From the NCBI GenBank assembly GCA_921293015.1, contig OV121096.1, forward strand, positions 7,134,285 to 7,198,284: 64,000 bases of DNA, in the 5' to 3' direction. Position numbers and translations under genes: made by a program. Positions 2,151 through 64,000 of this stretch are shown here, piece by piece (position 1 is the first letter of the stretch; the number at the start of each line of letters is the position of its first letter). This DNA is from Phorcus lineatus. Lineage: Eukaryota; Mollusca; Gastropoda; Trochida; Trochidae. The notes below the pieces were generated by a model. It was not told the origin of the DNA, did no database searches, and saw nothing but the letters and a program-made list of their open reading frames with translations.

Positions 2151-3584
2151 AAACATATGTGCTCACAGTTGGAATTCTAATTAGATCTGGACAATAATGA
2201 TATGGTGTCTGTCAGCTGCTATATTTGATTTAACTTACACAGGGTATGAAATAGTAGTCTGTGAGTATAGTTTGTTTGCAATTTATATATATCGAGGACT
2301 AAAATAGACACTTATTCTTCCATTATTGGATTTAAACACACAAATATTGTTCTAACATTTTTGTTCTAACCTTTGTTGTCAGCCTTTTAGCAATCACGAT
2401 CAAACTTAAAGGCCCTGATATTATTATGATAGTAACAAAATTGGAATGTTTTAATAAGAATTCTTATGATCATAAAATTTTATCATCACTGATGTAAAAA
2501 ATATTTGTAGTTTATGACGTCTAGAAACATTCATGTTAATGGAGTAAAATCGACAGTACTACATTAACAGTATGACCTAATATTACAAAAACGTGTTTAT
2601 CTAAATTTATTCAAATGGTAGAAATTTAATTATTCAGATGGTAGAAAAGAAAGTCTATTAGGAATATGTTTCTGCATTTCTCCTTTCTCTGAGGAATGTC
2701 ACAATAATTTGTATATAATTATTCAAAATCTTTTTTCATCTGAGCTAATTACAAAAACGGATATTTTTGTAAAGTGAGTCTGAGTAATATGAAATCGTTT
2801 GACTTGATTTATTGAGTGTGACACATAAAATCAAATATTAAGACACATTCAAGCTACTTGATATAACCACAGATGGTAATAGTATGATGTAAAGCCGATA
2901 CATAAACTTTTGTGTTAAGAAAATGTGTATGACATCAAACATCATTTTATACCGTTCAGCTTTCGATTGGAAAAATATGTTGAAACGTTCATAAAATATT
3001 CCAAACAAGCCTCCCTTGATCTCAAGGGGGGTAACTCTAAAGTTTGATCAAAGTGAAAAAAGTAAACTTCCTGCAGGAGTTATTATGATTTAGACTGAAC
3101 GATATGCGGCCCTGTGAACGAGCACCTGTTCTTTTCCAACCACTAGATCGGAGAGAATATTAGTCTCACCAAACCGCATGTCAACCTACTGCTGAAGAGA
3201 TGGTAAAAATTGTCTAGAAACTTTTTTTCTTGTAAAATAAACACAAATGAAGGGAATGTTTGAACAGCGCTTAACCTAGCCACGACAGGCCATGTAATCA
3301 GCATGGATCTAAGTTCGTTTGAAGATTTCGCTGTGAAACATAGATCAACTTCATGTCTTTAGGCAAGGCAAAATTCAGCCTTTCTGTCAGATTAAGACGT
3401 CGTTTATAATAAATCACTGTCTTGAATTCAGTTGAGGACATCCTGTTCAAATTAGGCCTACTCAATTTCTAACTTTCAGAAAGAAGCTGATTTGAAGACC
3501 AAATGCAAATTTCTGAAATTGGTAAGTTTTATTGTGTAGGCAATTTGAGAATTTGGCAGTATTTTCAATTGTTTAGCTCAATTA

Positions 3585-4055
3585 CAGACCTGTGCCAAAA
3601 GTATTCCCCACCTGGCGTAATTTCCATAGACTTCCATATTAATTAATTTTGGCAATGATAGCTTTCATTGATTTAATTTTCATCGTATCTTATAATTTTA
3701 TTCACATTTTGCTTAAATTTGAGGAATCATCTTGGTTACAACCTCATAATTTCAGTTTTAATTTCCATCATCATGGTCATATATCTAGGGAATAACAACA
3801 ATTGCATCAACATGTATATATACCAGATTGTCAAAACTTTAATATAATTGGTCTCTATGGGGAAACATTTATCATTCATCGGTAAATCTAAATAGCAATA
3901 GTTAAATGTAAGTCCAAACATTTAATTTGAATTATACATGTACATCCAGCTGACATAAGTTTATTTCAACCTGCAAAATTTAACAAAGATCCAACTAGAA
4001 TTATCAAAGTCTATGGAAATAACGCCAGGTGACAAATACTTTTGGGACAGGTCTG
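3585..4055. mobile_element. Tc1/mariner-type MITE, 471 bp
   Basis: Imperfect 48-bp terminal inverted repeats begin CAGACCTGTGCCAAAAGTAT and end ACTTTTGGGACAGGTCTG, flanked by TA at 3583-3584 and 4056-4057. GTGCCAAAAGTATT is characteristic of Tc1-like ends. No coding capacity. Confidence 0.85.
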
Positions 4056-5536
4056 TAGGTCAATGTGTCATTTAATATTTTCCTTTTATATAAAGAAATA
4101 CAACTCCGCAGGAAGAATTTTGAAGATGTTTGTACATGTAAAGGATTCAATTCAGACGTGCTGAGGTGTCCTTTTATCTGATGATAGATCTTACGTATCA
4201 AACTGCATTATAAAGTGCATAACATGTGCATATAATGTGTTTAAAGTTTCTTATCCTTGTTATTGCTTATATACTGGAGAACTGTAATAGATATACAGTG
4301 AGAAGGAAAGACACTTTTGACTATGGGCCATTTTAAGGGCTTTAGTCATTTTCAGAATTTTAAATAGGTCATTTCCATTTGTATCAATAGTAAAATTTTT
4401 AATCCGAATGGGCCATTTTTTCAACCAATGCGCAAAATGGCCCATGGCCTCTACCTTTCCCAATCCCAGACATATACAACTAATTTCCCTTTGGAATAAT
4501 AAAGCCATTATCTTATCTTATTCATGAATGCCAAGTGTTATGGGTACTTCAATAGTCAATTATTGTTTTGGTGTGCGTATACTGAGCCCATAGGGTTGGA
4601 TGTAGAATTTATTTGGGGGGAGAGGTTGGGGGTAGTTGTTGCAAGAGGGTGCTGCTCTCTATGCGGGGCTCCAGATAACATCCGTATCTGCGTTAAATAC
4701 CCACGGGTAATTCAGACATAAGCGTTAAAAAGGAAATCAATGAGTGATGCGTACACGCACAACTTTCCCAGAATACGAGTAAGATTTTTTTTAACAGGGG
4801 CGATTATGACTTGTAAACATAATGTTTCAGTTCTACATGTCTGATCTTTACATCTCGAATAGTAGCCAACTTGATGCCAACCTGTATGAAAACAAAGATT
4901 ACCGAGTTTATATTTGATCAAAGAGAAATCTCTCTAATTTACAGATTAAACGTGTGGAAAATATGATCAACGACTAACATCGAAAAAGATTCTAACCTGG
5001 AATGAGGATCTGAAAACAATAAACCTTGAAATACTCCTAGTTTTTTTTTCATGTGGTAATTTTACTCCTCAATTTATATTTTGAGGAGTAAAATACCCCT
5101 GAGTCCAAATTATTATCCGGAGCTATGGGTGTCACAAGTACAAATTGAAATGATTACTTTTTATCAAAGATTGAAAATGTGTACACAGGAAAACTGAGCT
5201 TAATGACTAGAGAGAGAAGGTATTAAGAGATCTACAATACAAAAACGACTCAACATTTTACAATACTTGGAACTCTCATAGGTTAAGGGGTGTACTCCTC
5301 ACGCTTTTGGCATAGCATGACGTCTGGCGTCAGTTCATCCGTCCGCCTGTCAACTTTTCACATTTTTTACTTGTCAAGATCCATTGGCTCTAGAGAACTA
5401 AAATCTTTTTTTACAGGTATCTAAGAAAATGGGGATTATTATTGGTAGATTTTTTTCTTGGTTGAGTTCCTATTGTTATTGTTTGTTGCAGAGTTAAGCC
5501 TCATCACCTACTGGGCCTGAAAGTAGTTCCGTCTCC

Positions 5537-5997
5537 ATGAGAGCCAAGATGATTTTCAAGTTTGGAGTAACGGTAGTCATTGCAGTTGCAGTGGTTATCG
5601 TGTACGTGAGACATACAGATCCTGATGATCAACTCGGGAAACAGTCTGATGCAGAAAAAGACCATTTAAGACAAACTCAAGGGGAGATAATCTCTGATCA
5701 GGATGCTGCTGGTGAAGATATAAAGAAAATGCAACTTGATATTCCGTCTAAGTCACAGACAAAATCAAAATCTAAAATCAAACAGAAAAATGTTGAACGA
5801 AATATTGCCAAACCAAAAATTCTTGAAAATAAAAATGTTAACGGTCAAAAAGCAAAAGAAAATATTGACCTTAAAAAGGGGAAAGCTGAAAAAATGGAGA
5901 TCAATCAAGAAAAATCTGTAAAGGCTGGACAAAAGATTCTAGAAAATATTGATAAAAATGGCAATGATAAAGACGTATTCAAGGCTGTTTTTTCAAG
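5537..5997 (+). CDS. GXYLT: GXYLT exon 1: cytosolic tip, signal anchor, stem
   Basis: Starts [10 protein letters not shown] and runs into a hydrophobic anchor. About 125 residues of low-complexity Lys/Glu/Asn/Gln sequence follow. The donor is AAG|GTTGGT at 5998; it gives phase 2 and joins exon 2 as Ser. The frame stays open to 6052, but the family match resumes only in exon 2. A pyrimidine-rich acceptor ends at 5491, suggesting a spliced 5'UTR exon further upstream that I could not place. Confidence 0.8.
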
Positions 5998-25641: not shown

Positions 25642-26115
25642 TATTAATAATTCCATCTCCAGAATACTGTACGTATTTTAGCAAACTTTCTAGTCAACAG
25701 GTGTAATATCGTTAAAGGTAAATGACATATGGGTCAATTTCAAAAAATCTCTAAATTTCGTGTCTTGGCATGTTATAAAAAAAATAAATAATTGTTTGTA
25801 TATTGTTCGGTCAATAAGTATTACGCCATAACAACTCTACCTCATGCAAACACTTATTTCATAAAAATGACATTAAAATATTTTTTATGGAACTTTGAAG
25901 TGTCAAAATCACGAAAAAATCACTGTCCCATAGACAGTATTGACATTTTTCATTATCTTTTAGAATGTGAAATAAACAAATTTTTCCCGTTTATTATGTT
26001 TTATGACAGTCTAATAACATTATCAACGATGTTATATCCACAAATATCTGGGAGGAAAATCAAATTTGCAATTTTTAGCAAATTTTCTCTTCATTTTTGC
26101 CTGTCACAAGGATTT

Positions 26116-27490
26116 GTGTCAGTTCTGTTACCATGAACAATAATTTGAAAAAATGACTGCTCCTTTATTGGTCCAAATAATTCCACTTCCTGTCATGGAC
26201 CTCCTCCTTCCTGTCTTGCAATGAGACGTAAGCATGGCTTTCCAGTGACACATTTCATCAAAAACATCGCATTCAAGTAAGTGGTCCACCATCTTTATGA
26301 TTTTTTTGGTCAGATCTGTTACCAAGGTTTTTAATAACATTAACTGCAAAATCACATATTATTTGGTTTCATATATAGAGCTTATTGAGGTATCAGTCCA
26401 ATGCAGCATGGCTTTGCAAGGGGAAGGGAGCAGTGATTATTTTGAAATTGATAAATGGGAGAATGTCAACTCTGTTACTGTCAGTTCTGTTATCATCTCT
26501 ACCAGTAACAGAATGGACACAATTGGTAACAGTTTTGACATTTTTGACAGTTTATCCTTTATTCTTCTTGAAGTTAAAAGTGTCAGGTATTTTTCATTCA
26601 AAACATTGAAGACATTCTGATTCTTTATCAAATAACATCGTGAAAGATCTTAAATAGTTGATGAACTATCATTGCTCATTGTTTAACTGTAATTTGGTAA
26701 CAGCTTTGACACACTTGGTAACAGATTGGACATTTAGTTACATTTTGTGCCTGTATTTTCCAAATTTATATTCTTTAATGACATTTTGAATTTAAAGGTT
26801 GACCTATTCTTTATACAGACAGTTTTTGTTTTGTGAATATAATAAAATTTCTAATGATGTGCCTTAATACATAGTTTCATTGAAAACTGGTAACAGATTG
26901 GATGTATTTAGTAACAGTCTTGACTTTTTGGGTAATTTCATCACAAAATCTTTTAAAATTCATATTAAAAATAAATTCTGTTGTCTAAATTTGCCTGATT
27001 TTGGGTCGTATAGGTCATTATGAACCGATAAATTTACAAGGAGTAATGGATTATTATTGTGCCTAAATTAAAGGAATTTTGGTAACAGAATGGACATATT
27101 TGGTAACAGTTCTGACATTTTGTTAGCTTTTATCACTTGATATTCAAGAATGGAATTATTTCCAAATGTATTCTGTTTGAAAGTATTAGTTTTTTTAAAT
27201 TTGACATCTGATTTTCTGGTGACAAACATCAAAATAATAACCTGTTATGTTTTATTGATATTTGGTAACAGTTTTGATATTATTGGTAACAGATTTGACC
27301 TTTTTAAGGATTATTGGCCAAAACCTTCTTAATTTGTTATTTTTAAGACATCTTTTGTTTGAAGCTCTGCAAAAAGTCCGTTGTCATTTTATTTCATGCT
27401 AGGAATTTTTTAATTGCAAAATCGTTTTCATTGTGCATAGTTTAATAGAAAACGGGTAACAGATATGACATATTTAGTAACAGTTTTGAC
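26116..27490. repeat. Left array of ~192-bp diverged tandem repeats
   Basis: GTAACAG begins at 26505, 26697, 26890, 27082, 27265 and 27456, spacings of 192, 193, 192, 183 and 191. Each has a second GTAACAG about 20 bp downstream with TGACA-like sequence between. The preceding 30 bases are also related from unit to unit (CATTGTTTAACTGTAATTT, CATAGTTTAATAGAAAACG). Further out, inverted CTGTTAC copies at 26125 and 26316 are 191 bp apart. Open frames here are not convincing genes. Confidence 0.75.
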
Positions 27491-27588
27491 TTTTATGACA
27501 TTTTGTGCCTATATATATGACTTTTACAAATGTGTGATAAAATTTGACATATTTTACGTTGCAGATAAATCCTGGAATCACTTCACAA

Positions 27589-28934
27589 TGGCTTTGAGTG
27601 CCGCAGAGAAGCAACGAAGATATAGAGAAAGGAGAAATATCTTTCACATGCATACCTATCTAGAGGACTAACAATGACAATGTCTGGAAAGAGAAGTGTG
27701 AAAGATCTTCCAATGAATTACGTTCAGTATTCAGAACAGTTTATCCCAGGTCTTCACTTGACCAAAAATACTGTCAAGGACATATTTGAGACCCCACTGA
27801 AACCCCACTGTCTCATCTGAAAAACTTCATGTGATGTGGACAACTACACGACAAGATATGGGCAATCGACACTGGGTTCCAAACCGCTTTGTACCGGTAA
27901 TCCAAATGCATCAACCGGCTACAAATGAGTCTAGTTCTTTTGCACTTGATGGACATACCCCTCCAACTGAAGTGACACCAGCCATATCAACTCCTGATGA
28001 TACTCACCCACCAACTGAAGTGACACCAACCACATCAACTCCTGATGATACTCACCCACCAACTGAAGTGACACCAGCAACATCAACTCCTGATGATACT
28101 CACCCACCGACTGAAGTGACACCAACCACATCAACTCCTGATGATACTCACCCACCAACTGAAGTGACACCAGCCATATCAACTCCTGATGATACTCACC
28201 CACCAACTGAAGTGACACCAGCAACATCAACTCCTGATGATACTCACCCACCGACTGAAGTGACACCAACCACATCAACTCCTGATGATACTCACCCACC
28301 AACTGAAGTGACACCAGCAACATCAACTCCTGATGATACTCACCCACCAACTGAAGTGACACCAGCAACATCAACTCCTGATGATACTCACCCACCGACT
28401 GAAGTGACACCAGCCATATCAACTCCTGATGATACTCACCCACCAACTGAAGTGACACCAGCCACATCAACTCCTGATGATACTCAACCACCAACTGAAG
28501 TGACACCAGCAACATCAACTCCTGATGATACTAACCCACCAACTGAAGTGACACCAGCCACATCAACCACTGATGATACTCACCCACCAACTGAATTGAC
28601 ACCAGAAACCTCAACCACTGATGATATTCACCCACCAACTGAAGTGACACCAGCCACATCAACTTCTGATGATACTCACCCAAATATTGCTCAACCTTCT
28701 TCTTCATGGACAATGGATGATCTGAAAAGATCACTACCTACACCGGAGGAACTAATTGACAAGTATGTTCTTGTCCTGTATGACAATAGAGCATATCCTG
28801 GAAGAGTCATTGACTTTGATGAAGAAAATGACATTTATGTTGACTGTATGTCACATGTGTCCAGGAAGGATAACTGTTTCTTTTGGCCTCATATGAAAGA
28901 CAAATGCTGGTATTCATATGATACCCACTATTAG
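27589..28934 (+). pseudogene. Remnant of a transposon-borne gene: N- and C-terminal modules around a coding minisatellite
   Basis: ATG at 27589 opens MALSAAEKQRRYRERR, an N-terminus I recognise from large uncharacterised, probably transposon-encoded proteins of fish, cnidarians and molluscs. It stops at 27671. A second frame, 27831-28934, encodes 367 residues: a short leader, 15 copies of a 16-residue repeat, then YVLVLYDNRAYPGRVIDF and KDNCFFWPHMKDKCWYSYD, which resemble the C-terminal module of the same proteins. Frame is lost between and after the parts (LIPEPNGSR-like sequence continues out of frame past the stop). The central, presumably catalytic, region is absent. Family assignment is from memory and needs a search. 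Confidence 0.55.
27960..28679 (+). repeat. 48-bp coding minisatellite, 15 copies
   Basis: Fifteen head-to-tail 48-bp units encode PPTEVTPATSTPDDTH with few changes (A/T-T/I at two positions; more divergence in the last four copies). The register is exactly 16 codons, so unit number can change without a frameshift. Confidence 0.95.
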
Positions 28935-29415
28935 CTGTTATTCCTGAACCAAATGGAAGCAGGACATCACGACACAAGGAAGTAGACCAGGTTATTTTGG
29001 ACATTGTAGCCCGTTTTGTGAAAGATTTGTAAAAGCTGAGCTCAGTTTATCAAAAGTGATTCCTAGAGTAGTATTTGTTCAAATGTTACTGTTTCATGAT
29101 ATCCTAGCTCATCAGTTCTGAAAGGCTAACGACAGGAGCTAACATGTTTTATCTGATGAGCTACAAATCATTTTCATAACAATTTATAGCAAGTGTTGCT
29201 TAATTTGTTAAATGTTTCAACGTTTCACGGTATGTGATAATTACTAATTACGGATTTAATCTATTGTTTTGACAGAAACCGAGTGTTTTGAGGAAGGTTT
29301 TTTGGTTTAACGTCTTGAATGAATACTTAGTGTTCAAGGTTTTCACATGTTACTAGTTCCTTGATTGAAGATCTCTCCTTTTCAGACATTTTCTAAACAT
29401 CCATCAATTTCAAAC

Positions 29416-30190
29416 AGATGTAACAGAAATGACTGAAAACAGATGTCAACACTGTTACCGTGATGTTAAAATTGGCTAATGTTTTATTAAGGAGTAAAGT
29501 TAGAAGAACAATTTCGAAGTGATGTTGTTTTGCCACTCAAACAATTATATTACAACGTACAACAACAATGATAATCCATGAAAAATTAACATCTGTCTCG
29601 TAATGTCAATACTGTTACAAGTTCTGTCAGTTCTGTTACCAACAGAGTTTTGAGTTGCCTACAGATATAACTGTAACTTCCCTAAGTTTGGAAAAACATA
29701 CTTAATGGTGAAGTATTCTTACATAAAATAGCCCAAAGGTCTCAATAATCATGTGAGATATTAAATATGTATTATTCAAGTGATTTCAATTAAGATTGTC
29801 TAATCTGTTACCATCATTGTCAAATCTGTTACCATCAATAGTTTGAACTGTTTTCTGTTTAAAACTCTAACAAACAAATAAAAATATTGCAATTTGATTC
29901 TTTTTCTCCTATAATTGTTGAAGTACCATGTTCATTTAAATGCATATAGGTAACTTTTTTATTCTAATGCACTAGGTAACCAGATACAGCAAATAATTTA
30001 CCTCCGGTTATGTGTTTTTGGTGTGTTCAGATGAACTCAAATGTTGAATGACTTTTTGTTAAAGAAAAAAAATTTTTTTGGAACAATGTTCTTATTAATT
30101 ATATATATATCTTTCCATAGGGGTGAAACTTTCCCAAAAATATCTTTATTTAAAAAATTTTTTTTTATTATAATATCGGTAACAGAACTG
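29416..30190. repeat. Right array of the same motif, mostly inverted
   Basis: CTGTTAC pairs occur at 29612/29633 and 29805/29826: 21 bp within a pair and 193 bp between pairs, the same geometry as the left flank but on the other strand. A single CTGTTACC at 29452 and forward GTAACAG copies at 29420 and 30179 flank them. Confidence 0.65.
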
Positions 30191-30402
30191 ACATGATGAC
30201 TTCCAATTATCACTTCAACTGTTAATTAAACATTAATTAAGCTAGATTAAGCTTGCATATTTTGGAATTATAAACCTGACGATGTATCCTTTTGAATGTT
30301 GCAAATAAACTTCAGATTAAACAACTTAGTTTTTGTTGATTTTACCTCCTCGAAATTTAGAGATTTTTTGAAATCGACCCATATAATGAGTACAAATCAA
30401 TG

Positions 30403-33900: not shown

Positions 33901-36900
33901 TACTTTGTTCCTGTTATTAGAAGAGTACAAACTGAAGAGTAGACCAATGGCATTGGAACTAAATGGTTGAGAATTTGCAATTTTTTTAATGACACTTGTA
34001 GATTTGTCAAAGAAATCATGTGATGTGTTTTTCACAAAATTGACTTTAAACTAGAAAATATAAAGATTGTTTTTTTTTATAATAGACATTCTCGGAAAAA
34101 ATTGAATCAATAACCAAGGAAATATTCTCTCAACAACTGATACATATATAAATCATAACTGTAAATTAGTTTCCAAAGTACTTGCTCTTGAGAAAAAATG
34201 TAATAAGCTTATGAGCAAAAAATGCTGAAAATTAGAAACATTTCTGCTCTAAAGTTTATCGTCATGCACTAAAATACAATGTTTTGACAACTAGCCTTCA
34301 TATTAGATTTTGTTAAAGTAAATTTCACAGAAAAAAAATCGATTTCTATGCATATACAAGACATTTTAAAAGAAAATAAATTGAACTGTAAACATCCAAA
34401 GTGTTAATGTTTTTAACAGTGAAACAACTTATTAATATTTATAAACATACATTTCATGCATGTGATATGTAATATACGTGAAACAGAAAATTAAAATTTT
34501 CTAAACAATCCAAAGAATTTCCCTCTAAGAGTGAACTTACAAAGTAAATTCTGTTTTATTTTGATATGACAAAATGGGCATCTCATGCCAGTCATGTGTC
34601 CCTGTGAACATGCAGTCTTAACAAACAGTTTCCTGCTCAATCAGCATATTTTTATCCACAATGCTTCTTCAATACCCTGTTATCTATAAGGCTTGTATTG
34701 CTGACAGTTGGTGACTAATAGAGCTATTCCTATGTAATCTAAGCCAATGAAATTTTGTTATATTATATAAATATATATCTTGAACTCAATGGTCCTGTCA
34801 TCCGGGTAGTGCTTGTTTTCGTTGATGGAAGTCAATTATTGGCTGTTTTATGAGACATTTAGCCTTATAACTGTCAGGGTATTGAAGGAGTTCATTTGAT
34901 ACAAATATCCTGATTTATCAGGATGAACAAACAGTGGTTTGGTGAAATACCACAATAGTCTATTTTACCTCCTTATGCCCATTGAAAAAACAGACCTGCA
35001 GACACAGACATGGAACATTCAGAACTGCTAATTTGCTATCAGTGCCATTATTATTGATCAATGTCATCTACTTTTATCATCACATGCCTTATTGTCTAAC
35101 ATCGTGATCAGATGTCTTCTCATTGTCTAACATCGTGATCACATGCCTTATTTCTAACAGTGTGATCAGATGTCTTATTTTTGTCTCACAATTTAATCAC
35201 ATGCCTTAACATTGTTTAACATTGCAATCATGTCTTCTCTTTGTCTAAAAATGTGATCCATATCCATGTCCATTATTGTGATCATATGTCTTCTCATTGT
35301 CTAACATCGTGATCACATGCCTTATTTCTAACAGTGTGATCAGATGTCTTATTATTGTCTAACAATTTAATCACATGCCTTAACATTGTTTAACATTGCA
35401 ATCATGTCTTCTCATTGTTTAAAAAGGTGATCCATATCAATGTCTAACATAGTGATCATATGTCTTCTCATAATCTAACATAGCGATCATATGTCTTCTC
35501 ATAATCTAACATAGCGATCATATGTCTTCTTATTGTCTAACATTGTGATCACATGCCCTATCATTATCAAACATAGTGATCAGACATATTTCTTATTGTC
35601 TAACATTGTGATCACATGCCCTATCATTATCAGACATAGGGATCATATGTCTCCTCATTATCTAACAATGTGATCACATGCCCTATCATTATCAAACATA
35701 GTGATCAGACATATTTCTCATTGTCTAACATTGTGATCACATGCCCTATCATTATCAAACATAGGGCTCAGACATATTTCTCATTATCTAACATTGTGAT
35801 CACATGCCCTATCATTAACTATCATTGCCATAACAGTACTCAGCATTTTCAATAAATAAATATTCATAAGTTTAATAAAGAGCTATCAAACAAGATATAA
35901 GCTCAAGACATACCCGATGCTTGATCTACTTGATGAAATGAGGGAAAAAGCATCATCAAGGAGACGGTGCATGCGTTGTTTCGCCTCTTCTAAAGACTCT
36001 CCAGTTGTGGAGGAAGCTTCCTGCTCATCCTCCGTGTAAGCCTCATTCTGGAAACATGAACAAAGATTCAATAAAAATGTATATTTTGACATTTGTGACA
36101 TTGGTTGCAGATGTGTTTCATTTCATAACATCAAGAGAACTTGACTCAAATGTGGTATAGAAGTGAAGGTATTTAAAAATTCTCTTATGGCGCTTGAGAT
36201 TTGATTCATATGTGTCAAAAGAAGTTCCATGAAAAGAATTACACTTTGATACTTTTTAATAACGCTTTTAGTGCAGATCAATTTGCCAAATATAAATTTT
36301 TAAATTCTTTGTTATAGATTTGATTTGGTATTTTTTGCAATTGGCTTATGATATTGCTGAAAGAACGATTGTAATATTCTGATCATAGAGAATGGAAATC
36401 TCTCCGATTATTCTGAACAATACTTACACTGTGACCTTCATGATTCTTCTTACGGCGAGTGGATCTGAAACATTTTCTCATATCATCACAAAAACAGCAA
36501 AAAATATCTGCTATTGATTTGAGTAAAGATTACAACTGGAATGAGAGATAAATTCTCTGTCAGTTCTTGACCCCTGAACTATGGTTTTTGGTCCATTTTG
36601 TAGCAACTAAGGGTGCGCGGTATTATCGGTATATCGGTATATTGCAATACAGAAACACCATGATACGTACCGGTACAGTTGTCTGAAAATATCCAATATA
36701 TCAGAGGTTATAGAACTAACAATTTCTGTGTAAATTTCCGAAAAACGTAACAACAAAAACCTTGATTTTACTGAAAATTGTAAACAAAGTATGAACTTGC
36801 AAGGTAAACATAGTACAGACAAGTACGAAACCAGTCGCCTAATTATTTCTTTTTACAAAACAACGTCAAGTTAAGCATTGATTGCTGTTCTAATTGTTGT

Positions 36901-51900: not shown

Positions 51901-54900
51901 GTTAAAAAATATAAATGATTTACGCTAAAAGTGAAGTACTTAATTAAAATCCTGTATTTCTTGAAAGTCTGCAAACAAAAATTCACGCAAAATTCATTGA
52001 CATAGAAAATGTTAACTGACCTGTGACGACCCAGAAGTTTTCATCACCAGTGTTAATTGTTGGTGTCGTGGTAGGGGGTTGTGAAGGTGTCACTGTTGGC
52101 AACATGGACGACGTCATTGATGATGACACCTCAGACGACATTGGCCCTTCTGTTGGCGTTGGTGACAGAGAAGATGCTTCCATGGAACTAGATTCAGACA
52201 ATGGTGTCATGGTTTCTACTATAGAACTCATGGTGTCTACTGTTGATTGATAAACTGATATTTCTGAGGATGATATAGATTCAGACATTGGTGTCATGGT
52301 TTCTACTATGACACTGGCAGTGTTTAATGACTGCGTAACTGATATTTCTGAAGATGCTATAGATACAGGTATGGTAACTGATATTTCTGAGGATACTATA
52401 GATACAGGTAATGGTGTCATGGTTTCTACTATCAAACTGGTGGTGTATTCTGACTGTGTTACTGGTATTTCTGAGGATGCTGTAGATTCGGGTAATGGTG
52501 TCATGGTTTCTACAATGAAACTGGTGGTGTCCACTGCTGATTGTGTCACTGATATTTCTGAGGATGCCATAGATTCAGTTTGGAGTGGAATGCTTGGGAG
52601 ATTGATAGAAGTGATTCCTGAAGATGCAAAGGACTCTGTTGGGAATGACATGGTAGGCACTCCTGTTGTTTTCATGGGTTCACTTGATAGGCTAGGCTGG
52701 ATGATGCTTGTCTCTGAAGAGATGTCCATGCTTGTAGGAAAGCTTGGAACCATCACTGAAGTTTCTGTAGATACCGATTCAGTGATGGCAGAACTTAACA
52801 CCACAGTTGGAATAGATTCACTTGTGGCTAGGCTTGGTACAAAGTTTGATAGGTCACTTGAAATTGAGTCACTTGAGGCAATGCTTGGAACAAAAACTGA
52901 ACCAAAGCTTGGCAAGAATGAGGACAGTTCTGTAGAGTTAAGCTCAAATGATGAAAAAGTGGGTGCCAAAGAAATTCCTGTTGATTGAATTACACTTGAC
53001 AATGTAAAACTAGACAAAATGTCTGAGATTCCTGTAGACAAAGTTCCATTTTCTAAGATTTCTGTTGACAATGTGTCACTTGAAAGTGCAAAGGTTGGTA
53101 CAAAAGTTGAGCTCTCTGTAATTAATAACTCTGTTGATGGAAAGCTAGGCACAAAATCTGTGATATCTGTGGACATAGATTCACTTGAATATGCAAAGCT
53201 AGGCACAACATCTGTAATTTCTGTGGACATTAATCCACTTGAAAACTCGAAGCTTGGAACAAAAGTTGAACTCTCTGACATCAAGGACTCTGATGAAGTG
53301 AAACTAGGCACATAATCTGTTGAGCTCTCTGTAATTAATAACTCTGTTGATGGAAAGCTAGGCACAAAATCTGTGATTTCCGTGGACATAGATTCAGTTG
53401 AAAATGCAAAACTAGGCACGACATCTGAGATTTCTGTTGACATAAATTCACTTGCAGATGCAGAGGTGAGCAAATCAGTTGACATAGATTTAGTTGAAAA
53501 TACAAAACTAGGCACATCAGTGATTTCTGTGGACATGGACATGCTTGCAAATGGAGAGCTGGGCACGATTTCTGTGATTTCTGTTGACAAGGATTCACTT
53601 GAAACTGCTAAACTAGGCAAAACATCTGTAATTTCTGTGGACATTGATGTATTTGAAAATTCGAAGCTTGGAACAAAAGTTGAACTCTCGGTTATAATGG
53701 ACTCTGTTGAAGCTAAATCTGTTATTTCAGTTGACATAGATTGACTTGAAAATGCAAAACTAGGCTCGATATCTGTAATTTCTGTTATAGATGCACTTGA
53801 AAATTCAAAACTTGGAATGTAAGTTGAGCTTTCTGACTTAAAGGACTCTGTTGATTCAAAACTATGCACAAAATCTGTGAAATCAGTTGACAGTGAGTAA
53901 CTTATTGATGTAACACTAGGCACAAAATCTGTAGAAAGGGTTTCCGAAAAATTCAAACTTTCAATGGAAACTGTCACCTCTGATATAGATTCACTTAATG
54001 AAAAACTAGGCACAACAAATGAGACGTCCGATGAAGAGGAGAACTCGTCTGAAGAAGGAAAAATAGGCACAATATCTGAAGCATCTGATGACATGGACCC
54101 AAACACAAAACTAGGCATAAACGTTGAGACATCGAGTGAGGAGACAGTTTCACTTGGTACAAAACTTGGCAGATTGATTTCCGATGAAGATATCACCTCA
54201 GATGATTCAAGAGCTTCAAAGGAGGACAAAAGAGATCCAAGAGCATGATCAGACGATTCAAAGATGGTTCTGGTTTCAGATATCTGGAAAGATGTCATGT
54301 CAGGTAGTGATGACATATCTGTCAAGTAAGATGAGTCTTCTAATGTCATGCTCTCAAAAGATCCAACGGCTGAAGATGTTGATCTCAAGTCTGAAGATGT
54401 TAGATCAAATGATGGCAAAACTTGAACCCCTGAATCAGATTGACTTGGATATATCCAAGATGTCGCATCCGTAAAATCCATAGAACTTATGTCTCCTCTG
54501 CTGGTCTCAGGATAAAAACTTGCGTATGATGTGTGCTCAGTTACTGTGTACGAGGACTCAACTATGCCAAAAGATGGCATTGGGTAGAAACTACTTCCTT
54601 CTGGAGATGTTGTGCTAATAGAAGCAAAGGTCATTGGCTCAGATATGCTGCTTGTCAGCCAATTAAATTCAGGCACCGAAACTGATCTCTCAAACGATAA
54701 ACTGGTTGGACGAGGAATGAAGAATTCTGAGCTTTCTGAATCCAGAGATGGCATCAAGGTCATGGTTTCTGAGATAAAAATATCAGAATAATCTGTTGAT
54801 GATTCAGTTGGAATGTATATATATCCCGAGGATGAATTTGGGTAGATAACAAGAGAACTGCTTAGACTTACAACAACACTGTCGGTTGACATTAATGTTT

Positions 54901-57900
54901 GGGAAAAGGTGTTCAAGCTTGGGAAAGTGATGTCCACAACTGAGGAATTAACCGTAGGAATTGAGCTGCTTCCATAGACTTCAGAACTCATGTCATAGAA
55001 GGCAGAGGATGGTACTGATAGATCCAATGAGGAAGATTGAATTCCACTTTCTGTTTCTGAAGGATAAGTTGGTCCATAAGTTGAGGAGTCAATGGTCACT
55101 GAGAGTGAATCTTTAATTGAGGACAGAGAGTAATCTAATGATGCAGAACCAGATGTTGATCTGAAGCCAGGTAACAAAGCATCAGATACAGAGATACCAA
55201 CTGATGAGTCTAAAAATGATTCTGTCTCTGTTGGCATCAACTCAGGTGTTGAAACTGGTAGCTCTGAGGGTAAAACAATTGCTGTTGATGTTTCAGATTT
55301 GAAGGAATCAGACATTAAATCACTGGATAAGATGGTAACAGCTGTTGATGGGGGATAAAGAACCGTCTCTATTGTTAACCTTCCTGACATTTCAGATGAT
55401 GATTCAGTTGAAAGGAAAGTAGACTCTGAATGAAATTTAAAGCTATCACTGACTGCAGATTCTGATCCATAGATAGGCAAACTTGATCCAGATCTTGATG
55501 AAGTGGATTCCAGAGGGAAAGAAGATGAACTTGACACAATTTCTGTGTATATACTTTCATACATAACTGATGAAACAGACTGATATATGTCCAAGCTCCT
55601 GATAACTTCAGATGACTCCCTGATTTGAAAACTGATAGATTCCTGGACTGATGGTTGGTAGGAGTTTGAATCTAGATCAGGAGTTACTGATGCAGTTCCG
55701 GAATATCCTGTTGAAATTGTTGAGAGTATTTCAGATCCAAATAAATAATCAGATGATCCAAAACTTGAATCAGAGAGCCTTGAAGAAGTACTTCCTGTCA
55801 CGCTCAGTGTGTAGGTGAAGATGGTATCAGTCTCATAGGCCTCAAATGATGCTGATTCTTCCTGGCTTGAAATTACAGATTCTGAATAAGATGGCTGGAA
55901 GAAGTCTGATGGATTCAGGGCAGTAGACTCAGAAGACATAGGGAGGACACTGGTTGATTGTATAAGGAACGATTCCAGAGGAGACTCTGTCAAAGATATT
56001 CCCAGGGATGCCTGGCTTTCAGTTATCCCAGGGACTGATTCCGTTTGGTCAACAGATGCCTGCTCAGGTAGAGTAGAAGATGTAACACTATCCGGCATTA
56101 ATTCTGAAGATGGGAACCAAGTTGAAGAAACTTCATTGCTTATTATTAATTCTGGTCCAACACTTGACAGAGGATCAGAATAGGCAGATGACTCACTGAA
56201 CGCAGTCTGTTCAATACTTGATGTTCCTGAATCCAACGGGATTGTTGAATATGTTTCACTTGATCTTTGAGGGTAAACAATAGATGAAGACATGTCACTT
56301 GCACTATCTGGAATAATAATATCAGTTATTGATGTCGATGAAAGCATATCAGATTGAACAACTTCTGATGTGACCATGGACGCTATCAGGGGTTGAGAAG
56401 GATATGTGTCTATTATTTCACTTGAAAGGTAATCAGAGGCACTTAGAGAAGAATATGCAAACACTGTTTGTCCTGATAAATCCTTTGATTGTGCACTTGA
56501 CTCTATAGAAAATGTTGATTCAGAAACTATAATTTCTTCACTTTGCGAGGTGAGCACTTCAGTGTTTTCTCTTGTGACCTGCACAGAGGTTTGGTCAGTG
56601 AGGACCTCCGAAGATACAAAAGATGATTGTTCTGCAGTTAGCACAACACTAGAACCCTCACTAACCAAGTCAAAATTTTGCATAGAAGATGATGTAAGAT
56701 TGGCTGGAATCTGGGTTTGATATGTTGCTTGTGAAATGGAGGGAGTAGCTGGTTGGAATGCATCAGAAGACACAGAATCATCTCTGGAGGTCCTTAGGAT
56801 GCTTTGGGCAGATGAAAAAGCTTCTTGAGGACCACCAGTTATGGACGTTTCTTGGGTAAATGTATCCAAAATACTTTTACTAAAATATACATCTGAAGAC
56901 GGCTCTAAAGCAAGAGCTGTTGACGTACTTATCAATGCATTGTCATTAGAGTTGATATATGATATGCTCAATGAAACATCAGGTCTGTATTCTTCTGTTG
57001 ACACTGTTGATGATACTGTTATTATATTTTGATCTGATGATGATGCATCTATAATTTCCTGGACACTTGATGATGCATCTATTATTTCTTGGACACTTGA
57101 TGATGCATCTATTTTTTCTTGGACACTTGATGATGCATCTATTATTTCTTGGACACTTGATGATGATGGATCTACTATTTCTTGGATACTGGATGATGCA
57201 TCTATTATTTCTTGGACACTTGATGATGCAACTATAATTTCCGCGACACTTGAAGATGGGGCATCAATCAATTCTTGGACACTTGAAGATGATGCCTCAA
57301 TTAATTCTTGGACACTTGAAGATGATGCCTCAATCAATTCTTGGACACTTGAAGATGATGCCTCAAATAATTCTTGGACACTTGATGATGCATCTAATAT
57401 TTGTTGGAAACTTGATGAAGGAAAAATATCTAGAGAGGCACTTGAGATCTCAAAATGAGCACTTTGCGTAGAGGATTCATCTTTTCTTCTGGAATCACCT
57501 TCAAGAACAAAACTTGTTTGTGAATCAGATGAAATATCATTTGAAGAATGCACAGAATCAAATGATGAAGTATATTGTTCACTAGCACTGCTTGCCTGAA
57601 TCAAATTTGCCTGTTCATCAGTGACAGACGATATGACCACATCTGGCACATAACTGGATGAAGCAACTGCTGTACTGGAAGCATCTTCAGAAGATGACAC
57701 ACCTTCAAGCAATGCCTTGGTAGTCTGTACACTTGCCTCAAAATCTTGAGACTCTGAAGCAAGAATGGATCGGGAAGGTGCTATATCTACAGTAGATTCA
57801 ACAGTTGAAGTAGTATCACTGTGGCCATCTATGCTTGATATGATATTCAGATATGTATTTTCTTGAGCTTGAGTGCTTGAATATTGCGATAGAGTGTCTG

Positions 57901-60204: not shown

Positions 60205-60625
60205 AGTCTATTTCTGCCAACAGTCTAACTCTGATTACAACCCTGACAGTCCCAAAATGCCTCCAGCTCCATTCAGCCCACAGTCTATTTCTGCAGTCTT
60301 TACTGATTACAACCCTGACAGTCCCAATATGCCTTATGTTCCATTCTGCTTACTGTCTATTTCTGCCAACAGTCTAATTCTGATTACAACCCTGACAGTC
60401 CCAGTAGGCCTTAAGTTCCATTCTGCCTACTGTCTTTAAATATGCAGTCTTTTTCTGAATAAAACCCTGACAGTCCCAGTAAGCCTTCAGCTCCATTCTG
60501 CCTACTGTCTTTTATGCAGTCTTTTTCTGATTAAAACCCTGACAGTCCCAGTATGCTTCAGTTCCATTCTGGCTACTGTCTATTTCTGCCAACAGTCTAA
60601 TTCTTATTACAATTTTGACAATCCC
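60205..60625. repeat. Minisatellite, ~75-80 bp units, six copies
   Basis: GATTACAACCCTGACAGTCC recurs at roughly 75-80 bp intervals, each followed by CAGTATGCC and TTCCATTCTGCCTACTGTCT. The open frame that crosses it is repeat-derived. Confidence 0.85.
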
Positions 60626-61500: not shown

Positions 61501-63613
61501 GCAATAAATATGCAGCTTTAGAGGGGCGATTTATAGTACTTATAGTCTTTGGCTCTTATTCCAGCCACAGAAAAAATCATCAAAAATACTCAGTGTCACT
61601 TTAAACCAATGGCTTCAATCCCTAAAACAGGTGCTCATTTACAACTAAATTTCTGTTCAATTTGAAATCTGGATAGTAGTGGTCAACAACTGCATACTTT
61701 CTCCCACTGACCGGTGGACAGATGTCCACTGTTAAGGCTCTCGTCCAACATGTCTAAGCCAACAAGCAAATCCTTTAATCTGGAATGTGTCTGTGTTTGG
61801 TTTGATCAAGGTCTTCAACTGTCTGGCTGGTCGGTGAATAAAGCACATTTTTTACACTTTTTTCTCTGTGATGAGTTTATCCTTTTTTAAACATAATTCA
61901 CGACAGGTGTGATGTCTGATCTGCCTGTTGTTTTAGCAGGTGTCAAAATCAGGGATTTGATGTTTTCTTCAGCAAATAAAGTCAATGTTTATAATTATTT
62001 CTTCACCAATTTAATCAATTCTTTTGTACCACTTCAGAAAAAAATGTTTTGAGTCAAAAGTGATTTGTCAGGGTGTTCAATGGATTTGCTTAATTTATAT
62101 GAAATATTTATATATGTATTTGAATATCAACATGCTTATATTACATATTTATATGGTAGTAACCGAAAAAAAGAATATCTACCCATACCTTATTGAAATT
62201 TTAAAATATGTAACTAAAACATTAGATATTTTGTCTACATTAAGATTAACATGATCAAACTATTTTTTTATCTGAAATCTAATAATTATTAAGTGATCAA
62301 ATTTAGCGATACAACCAACATTGCGATATATATAGAGGAATACATCCAATATTGCGATATATAGCAATACAAGCAATACATAATTTGACTTTTCATATAA
62401 TACTGTTGAAAAATGTTTAAAAAGATAATTCCTTTTTAATGTTCTTTATTGTGAATGTACTTTAAAAATTCCTAGTAGAGCATGAAATGTACACTAACTT
62501 AATGCTTAACTTCAGATTCTCATGGTCAAGACATGTCCCAAAAAATATTTTATTTCTGTTTAAACTTTCTGCAAAAGTATTTTGGATGATTTATTTAAAG
62601 ATTCTCACTTCTTAGTGTGGCAGGCTTAAGATAAAACCTTACCTCGTAATTCAAATTTTTACAGTCTTAACATGTTTTTGAAAACTCATCTCTTTTTCAT
62701 TTTTTTCTAGAAATTACATGTGAAAGGATACAATTTCTCTAAGCATACCATCGGAATGAGTTCTCTAAGTCTATTGTTCTTTGTCTGTCCGGGAGGTTAA
62801 TATTGGCTTCTTAATGATCTGTGGGGTGTGATGTTATGATCATAATAACATATTATTTAGCAAGTAAATACAGTTGTTAACTTTAAGGCGATCGCACCAA
62901 TGTGATAAATGTGGCCAACGAGAAAAAAACCCCAGGCATTTTCATAAAGTTAAGCTTTTTAATGCATGGTTTTCCTGTTTATGTCTGGGCAGAGACAAAT
63001 ATTTTTCTACATGGTGTATGACATTTAAAAATAAGTCAAAATATGCAAACATAAAAACATTTTATATACATAATAAATGGATTTATTGTTGTTGAAAAAA
63101 AAATTCAGAAAAATTATGTTGGCACAGATTAAATAATGAGTTTTTCAATGGTGTTCTGAAAAGCAGACATTATTGCTGTAGATTTGGTTGATTTCTTACA
63201 ACATTTCATACAAGAAGAGCAATCAAAAAAATTATCACGAGAAACTTCACGCACCTTGCTGATTTCTAAATTGTTGGGATGAGAAAAAATTTTGGAATGC
63301 TGGTTTGCACTGAATTTATATTTTTTAAATCAGAATTAAATCCTTATTGCATGTCTCAACTCTACTCCAAACAAAAGTCCAAATTTGGAATTCTTTTTTT
63401 GAACTTTTTACACTTAAAACAAAGAAATACAGGAACTTGAAATTCTCAAAAATTAAAGACACACAGACACTTTGAAAAAGTAGCAAGGATTAAATGAAAA
63501 GATTTGCTTTGGTTATTATGATAGCATGTGTTTTAATATGTAAATGTCAACATGTAATATTATTTCATGTACAACCACATGGCATGTAATATAAGCAACT
63601 GGGAAGGAAGTTA

Positions 63614-64000
63614 CCTTTGTATCTATAGCCATATGATAACCACAGAATAGTAAAATGAATAGGATACAACCTTTGTATCTATAGTCATACGATAACCAAA
63701 GAATAGTAAAATGAGAGGATACTACCTTTGTATCTATAGTCATACGATAACCAAAGAATAGTAAAATGAATAGGATACTACCTTTGTATCTATAGTCATA
63801 TGATAACCAAAGAATAGTAAAATGAATAGGATGATACCTTTATATCTATAGTCATATGATAACTGAAGAATAGTAAAATGAATAGGATAATACCTTTGTA
63901 TCTATAGTCATATGATAACCAAAGAATAGTAAAATGAAGAGGATAATACCTTTGTATCTATAGCCATATGATAACCAAAGAATAGTAAAATGAATAGGAT
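63614..64000. repeat. 56-bp tandem repeat, ~7 copies, running off the window
   Basis: Unit ACCTTTGTATCTATAGTCAT plus ATGATAACCAAAGAATAGTA plus AAATGAATAGGATACT. Copies are nearly identical, indicating recent expansion; the array continues past the window end. Confidence 0.92.

Follow-up and report, generated by a model that had tools for sequence, protein, structure and literature searches.

A Sola2-like DNA transposon with regularly spaced arrays of candidate transposase-binding sites extending about one kilobase into its ends

The window analysed here, a stretch of 64,000 nucleotides (C37:7134285-7198284 of a 958-Mb eukaryotic genome), contains at 25731-30380 a DNA transposon with an internal deletion, lying between two copies of ATAT (Table 1). 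The element is a cut-and-paste DNA transposon, with inverted termini, a target-site duplication of constant length and insertions at several places, and the window copy is a non-autonomous, internally deleted member of its family. The termini agree at 29 of 30 bases, base 6 being the sole mismatch. Within both ends are arrays of a short site repeated at a pitch of ~192 bp. Related but much-diverged transposons of the same genome share this layout, an indication that selection maintains the spacing itself.

Six 70-nt units are present at the left end of the window copy, starting at 26474, 26666, 26859, 27051, 27234 and 27425, with steps of 192, 193, 192, 183 and 191 bp. Each unit carries two GTAACAG sites 21 bp apart, the first sites being at 26504, 26696, 26889, 27081, 27264 and 27455, and the right end contains copies of the unit on the other strand, 193 bp apart. 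The two sites before the orientation flip start at 26472 and 26487, both in reverse. A preliminary description of this locus had reported the inverted termini with their ATAT flanks, the six left units with these five steps, the right-side pairs 193 bp apart on the opposite strand, and motifs about 21 bp apart in each unit, and all of these were reproduced on remeasurement; the opposite-orientation sites outside the arrays, the transposase gene remnants and the longer copies are additions to it. Over 4,130 non-coding bp of a full-length copy, GGTAACAG occurs 32 times within one mismatch compared with a mean of 1.75 (highest 6) in 200 single-base shuffles, an excess of ~18-fold, and 18 times exactly compared with 0.05 in the shuffles. 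The array does not extend past the tips: the 1,026 bases to the left of the element contain no near-match to the site, and the 1,016 bases to its right contain three scattered one-mismatch matches, none at the 21-bp spacing. Genome-wide, the pattern GGTAACAG-N10-14-GGTAACAG is found 93 and 92 times on the two strands, and a reversed control pattern 16 and 14 times; among the places listed, several such pairs recur at 191-194 bp.

Table 1. Features of the transposon in the window (positions are those of the window; distances are from the nearer tip).
Feature	Position	Strand	Basis or remark
4-bp target-site duplication ATAT, left copy	25727..25730	.	
Left terminal inverted repeat, begins GGGTCAATTTC	25731..25760	+	29/30 matches to right end
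Outer site 1, reverse orientation, 395 bp from tip	26125..26132	-	at 385-395 in F2, F3, F4, F5, L055
Outer site 2, reverse orientation, 586 bp from tip	26316..26323	-	at 569-587 in F2, F3, F4, F5, L055
Reverse sites at 742 and 757 from tip (15 bp apart), directly preceding orientation flip	26472..26494	-	
Left array, six GTAACAG pairs, pair spacing 21 bp	26504..27483	+	
Transposase gene remnant: first ~17 codons, 2,492-bp deletion (residues ~18-848), part of C-terminal region	27588..29030	+	alignment to L012, list of open reading frames; coordinates derived by hand from the L012 alignment
48-bp repeat, 15.1 copies, encodes 16-aa unit (PPTEVTPATSTPDDTH type)	27959..28682	+	
C-terminal 74-aa domain, predicted beta strands, weakly Tudor-like	28710..28931	+	mean pLDDT (predicted local distance difference test) 57.4; best Foldseek E 0.13
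Right array: pairs 29612/29633 and 29805/29826 (193 bp apart); inner sites 29419+, 29452-	29419..29833	-	
Outer site of right end, 196 bp from tip, orientation opposite to right array	30178..30185	+	
Right terminal inverted repeat	30351..30380	-	
4-bp target-site duplication ATAT, right copy	30381..30384	.	

A genome search with the left 174 bases matches five copies, three right ends and one diverged relative on C9, so that the window copy has four companions with this left end, as its description as a transposon had led one to expect. The five copies of this family, F1, are those in the window (duplication ATAT; 4,658 bp with flanking bases), at C37 17.42 Mb (C37b; TTAT; 4,268 bp), at C2 54.29 Mb (ATAT; 7,837 bp), at C2 56.18 Mb (L012; ATGT; 8,460 bp) and at C39 27.83 Mb (ATAT; 10,189 bp), the last with additional DNA inside its left array. 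The full-length copy that had been sought is L012, in which a single open frame at L012:3284-7606 encodes a transposase-like protein of 1,441 residues (P0001, starting MALSAAEKQRRYRERR); the C2 54-Mb copy has this frame broken into two parts. Relative to L012, the window copy lacks positions 3335-5826, including the conserved protein core, as well as ~5 array units. It is 99.9% identical to C37b over 2,064 bp and across the same internal deletions, and the two therefore probably descend from a single deletion derivative. Perfect 4-bp duplications are present at 12 of the 14 insertions in which both flanks were read (F1 5/5, F2 1/1, F3 1/2, F4 4/5, F5 1/1, for the families defined below), the remaining two being off by one base, and the 12 perfect cases comprise eight of ATAT and one each of ATGT, TTAT, ACAT and AGAT.

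More distant relatives allow the layout of the ends to be compared. F2 is the diverged C9 relative (L014), F3 the family of L047-L051, F4 a five-copy family (L052, L060, L062-L071) and F5 comprises L053 and L061; L046 and L054-L059 are further loci matching the protein core. Beyond the F1 copies, ~4 kb upstream was read at nine loci (L046, L052-L059) and ~9 kb around L046, and 30 loci were covered with 1.5 kb of flank, much of that coding. Measured from the left tip of L012, sites lie in reverse orientation at 395, 586, 742 and 757, and then flip to forward at 774, 795, 966, 987, 1159, 1180 and onward; from its right tip there is a reverse site at 196, followed by forward sites at 547, 568, 740 and 761. 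L055, whose motif is TGTTACAG, has reverse sites at 395, 587, 742 and 757 and forward sites at 772, 793, 965, 987, 1156 and 1177. The same lattice is seen in F2, which is 3,056 bp long with no frame above 88 aa, in F3, where there are 17 left-end matches and the sole copy read end to end lacks the core, in F4 with the motif GGTAACACCA and in F5 with GTTACAGTAAAGA. All ten left positions of F1 agree within 2 bp with those of F3 and within 3 bp with those of L055, those of F4 and F5 are displaced nearly as a block by ~8-12 bp, and those of F2 are shorter by 3 to 17 bp. At the right end the outer site is at 196-198 in F1, F2, F3 and F4, F5 having only a two-mismatch match at 197, and pairs lie at 546-551/567-571 in F1-F5. 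In the same genome, then, the motif takes the variants GGTAACAG, GGTAACACCA, GTTACAGTAAAGA and GTTACATGAAGGAC according to family. At L046 we note a second transposon within the array (138-2318, approx.), which has inverted ends of 38 bp and a frame of 469 aa resembling a Mutator-type transposase by eye. Relatives were also sought on viral contigs, where 33 pattern matches yielded none that was confirmed.

The ten left offsets of F1 were used as a template, and for each 8-letter word tried we counted the offsets holding it in the right orientation, within 4 bp and with at most one mismatch. F1 scores 10 by construction, and F3, L052 (F4), L053 (F5) and L055 also score 10, followed by F2 with 9, L054 with 8, L056 with 7, L046 and L057 with 5, and L058 and L059 with 4; best scores were 3-5 for the shuffled versions (three per locus) and 4-5 for four control stretches taken from the window. 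Identity to P0001 in the core is 49% for L052, 42% for L053, 46% for L055, 42% for L054, 52% for L056 and 48% for L046, and falls to 29%, 32% and 28% for L057, L058 and L059; the template scores therefore indicate a layout that the nearer families have in common and of which the distant ones give no sign. Chance clustering of the motif was considered and is ruled out by the counts in shuffled sequence, by the termini that bound the arrays and by the geometry shared across families.

The DNA between the sites behaves differently from the sites. When sites and tips were masked in the first 1,600 bases and the remainder aligned globally, with z-scores taken against 40 local shuffles, nine of the ten pairs among F1-F5 gave z of 0.3-3.9 and only F1-F2 stood out (z 15), which is also the one pair of the ten with a BLAST match between masked ends. 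In the long F1 array (11 units compared), agreement with the majority base is 86-88% at the two sites versus 57% in the spacer. As to the pitch, after exclusion of 13 of 35 first-site steps from six families as lying outside 165-215 bp, many of them from stray or weak sites, the other 22 comprise 14 at 190-193 bp, six at 166-186 and two at 215. Array length changes in whole units, and in one F4 copy the array matches itself at shifts that are exact multiples of 193 bp, for the most part with 98-99% identity. The five F4 copies (C5:46178596, C41:5164064, C32:23394446, C16:14783818 and C15:14245293) have left-end-to-core distances of 4276, 4083, 3311, 3311 and 3118, corresponding to 6, 5, 1, 1 and 0 units of 193 bp, and their left ends are identical over the 201-203 bases compared; unit gain and loss is therefore recent, the combination is a sign of recent movement, and such turnover bears on how the pitch can be kept.

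The F4 arrays, with their exact 193-bp differences and nearly identical units, indicate that tandem gain and loss occurs, and it could be supposed that the ~192-bp array is simply an internal satellite grown by tandem duplication, its spacing inherited by all families from one ancestral array without selection. Yet nine of the ten family pairs have little or no similarity between sites while the positions hold to a few bp, or shift nearly as a block, over ~800 bp, and so diverged a stretch of neutral DNA would be expected to have undergone many insertions and deletions. Positions are retained as well by the outer reversed sites, although these lie outside the tandem array, and we regard a satellite origin of the shared spacing as quite improbable.

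The core of P0001, the protein that might read these sites, has at least 137 matches in the genome, some being pieces of one element. Among 14 non-redundant aligned rows, D461 of HxDFxEN is conserved in 13/13 and D542 of FSDGP in 12/12, and a third acid near HGKGxPDG may be either E575 (11/12) or D584 (12/12), so that the set looks like an acidic triad; the cysteines C316, C318, C363 and C366 of a possible zinc finger are each conserved in 13/13. An OTU-like region follows the core, with motifs ADGDCLP and NHFVP that were picked by eye and that we take to be OTU-like, and the Pfam OTU model PF02338 is reached by one of 11 relatives with a weak E-value of 0.048. For a model of the 74 C-terminal residues, the first Foldseek matches are PHF20 Tudor domains, followed by other Tudor domains, biotin ligases and Sm-like proteins, and the Tudor model PF21743 is matched in one of 11 members (E 0.12). 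P0001 has no Pfam match above cut-off, and a PDB sequence search gave no convincing match. Pfam has models for the Ginger, piggyBac and hAT superfamilies; neither these nor any other transposase or integrase model matched P0001 to E 10 or the 11 proteins to E 1. Matches to macro domain, cathepsin and Dicer were dismissed (E 0.19 and above), and a literature search on Vertnin, a transposon-like protein, yielded nothing useful. We also note that the coding 48-bp repeat lies ahead of the C-terminal domain and differs in copy number between copies; a G-rich repeat of other sequence occupies a roughly corresponding place in an F3 copy (L047:1450-2220, approx.).

A plausible scenario is that the element-encoded transposase recognises a site of ~16 bp (about GGTAACAGnnnTGACA in F1), arranged as single and reversed sites further out and then as 21-bp pairs in each ~192 bp over at least 1 kb on the left, with a shorter, inverted version at the right end. 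Several transposase subunits would bind the sites jointly, forming an end complex, and a higher-order complex in contact with several sites together would join the ends and cut at the GGGTC tips; the distances would then be kept by selection because such a complex must touch several sites at once. That the site variant differs by family within one genome fits an element-encoded reader better than a host factor. Both lattices are retained where no match to the core is found, as in the window copy, C37b, F2 and F3, which fits a need in cis for movement. The preliminary description had proposed that the motif could be a transposase-binding site arrayed further in than is usual, and the family-specific motif, the conserved geometry and the arrays retained by deletion derivatives make this a well-supported proposal, in which binding as such is still inferred. 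Overall, we consider that the arrays are probably transposase-binding sites forming a lattice under selection for spacing, although some doubt attaches to this. Gene regulation is a serious competing account, in which promoter-region sites would mainly repress or titrate the transposase, as might be expected from a left array that, in the intact-frame copy, comes within ~0.15 kb of the start codon of the transposase gene. It would not explain why the right end has a conserved layout of its own or why derivatives without the core gene keep the layouts of both ends, and we think it unlikely.

For the repeat length we hypothesise a nucleosome link: the transposase would read the end through phased nucleosomes, with the site pairs in the linkers, perhaps aided by the Tudor-like C-terminal domain. 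This version is favoured because 192 bp is close to a nucleosome plus linker and because the gap from pair to pair is ~150 bp (148-151 bp in 17 of 24 gaps); two nucleosomes would fit in the 351-bp step of the right end. Taken alone it is the least certain step of the scenario, and we put it forward tentatively. The broader reading in which the ends are built as chromatin, with linker-placed sites over ~1 kb selected while the intervening DNA was replaced, and with a C-terminus resembling a histone reader, is doubtful as a whole; in it, the array length would change by whole nucleosome-sized units.

The pitch may instead follow from how a large assembly of transposase is shaped on naked DNA, through looping or as a ring-shaped oligomer. 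This too is a serious rival, and one with a precedent in the hAT transposase Hermes, which forms an octamer and whose BED domains depend on subterminal repeats being exactly placed (PMC10368747, in excerpt). The irregular steps of 15, 17, 21, 156, 171 and 351 bp do resemble those of a specific complex. The likeness to Hermes extends to short repeated sites at fixed positions inside the ends and a multimeric transposase bound to them, but the Hermes repeats lie within ~300 bp, mostly in the first tens of bp with the innermost mentioned from bp 276, and the excerpted text mentions no ~192-bp period (PMC10368747). Hermes also differs in its 8-bp target duplications, and five (window) to ten (L012) steps of ~192 bp would be hard to accommodate in one closed complex. 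We regard an assembly on naked DNA as possible, if not the outcome we would expect. The inner and outer repeats of Sleeping Beauty are ~165 bp apart. That system differs from the present one in having two sites per end, a TA target and a Tc1/mariner transposase; the likeness lies in its inverted repeat/direct repeat (IR/DR) ends, with more than one transposase site per end and all four needed (PMC7827188, in excerpt).

Several observations weigh against a spacing-selected lattice read through nucleosomes. The distant loci L057, L058 and L059 (28-32% core identity) score 4-5 on the template, level with the controls; L046 scores 5 at 48% identity, its array being interrupted by another transposon and its outer part lying outside the region read; and a stricter earlier scan, in which the first pair was required, gave 6 for L054, 5 for L046 and 4 for L056. 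F2 is closely related to F1 and does not count as an independent case. The comparison of between-site DNA covers F1-F5 only, L054-L056 being outside it, and within it F1-F5, F3-F5 and F2-F5 retain weak residual similarity (z 3.1-3.9). Inner units are looser, with steps of 183, 190, 180, 181, 191, 192 and 179 bp in F1 and of 215, 201 and 232 bp in L056. As to nucleosomes, the ~150-bp gap depends on the footprint chosen, and the power of AA/TT/TA dinucleotides peaks at 10.0 and 11.0 bp with z of 2.7 and 2.6 among 25 periods, a weak sign of positioning; the site end of the unit has somewhat higher G+C and fewer A/T tracts than the spacer, and a clear nucleosome pattern was not found in it. The Tudor likeness depends on a low-confidence model (E 0.13).

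Sola termini are of the GRG type, and the first bases here are GGG in F1, F4 and the left end of F3, and GAG in F2, F5, L055 and the right end of F3. The element was left unassigned in the preliminary description, a verdict that can now be partly resolved: its target duplication, size and termini point to a Sola2-like transposon, and as the likeness is one to published descriptions only, we file it as resembling Sola2 and not as a proven member. Sola2-type elements have 4-bp AT-rich duplications (ATAT, AAAT, ATTT, AWWT; PMC3627910, in excerpt), with which those of the 12 perfect cases agree, and Sola elements are mostly 2-9 kb, some longer, with terminal inverted repeats of 11-1124 bp, ranges that include the 4,259-10,181 bp (without duplications) and ~30-bp repeats of F1 (PMC10741241, in excerpt). 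The putative acidic triad, with either E575 or D584 of P0001 as its third acid, may be a further likeness to Sola2, which has a DDD transposase, whereas the kilobase phased lattice, the OTU-like region and the Tudor-like C-terminus of F1 are unmentioned for Sola2 in these excerpts. Ginger1 transposases carry a C-terminal OTU or Ulp1 protease domain (PMC2836005, in excerpt), with which the OTU-like region of P0001 may be compared, but have a Gypsy-integrase-like core, and the 11 proteins scanned matched no transposase or integrase model. Among the literature matches listed, titles and the starts of abstracts describe no such arrays, which does not establish their absence from print.

Among other repeats in the window, we note a 56-bp tandem repeat at 63612-64000 (seven copies, 93% matches) that runs to the window end, and an imperfect array at 35079-35827 with nested periods of 31, 63, 125 and 174 bp. 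Further tandem repeats lie at 52253-52578 (39-123 bp), 53077-53678 (54/159), 57038-57418 (30/63) and 60230-60604 (17/72).

Transposon ends are usually pictured as short, consisting of tips and of sites no more than a few hundred bp away. In the present case it is the placing of sites, more than the intervening DNA, that is conserved over ~1 kb across families with 42-52% core identity to P0001. What is kept is thus distance more than sequence, and for that reason the label of an unassigned transposon says too little about the element. The combination of paired sites, a ~192-bp pitch and an orientation flip provides a simple signature with which other genomes can be searched, and the arrays illustrate a route by which transposons generate tandem arrays of nucleosome length. 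Whether evolution has adapted a transposase to nucleosomal DNA as its substrate for assembly could also be put to a natural test in these families.

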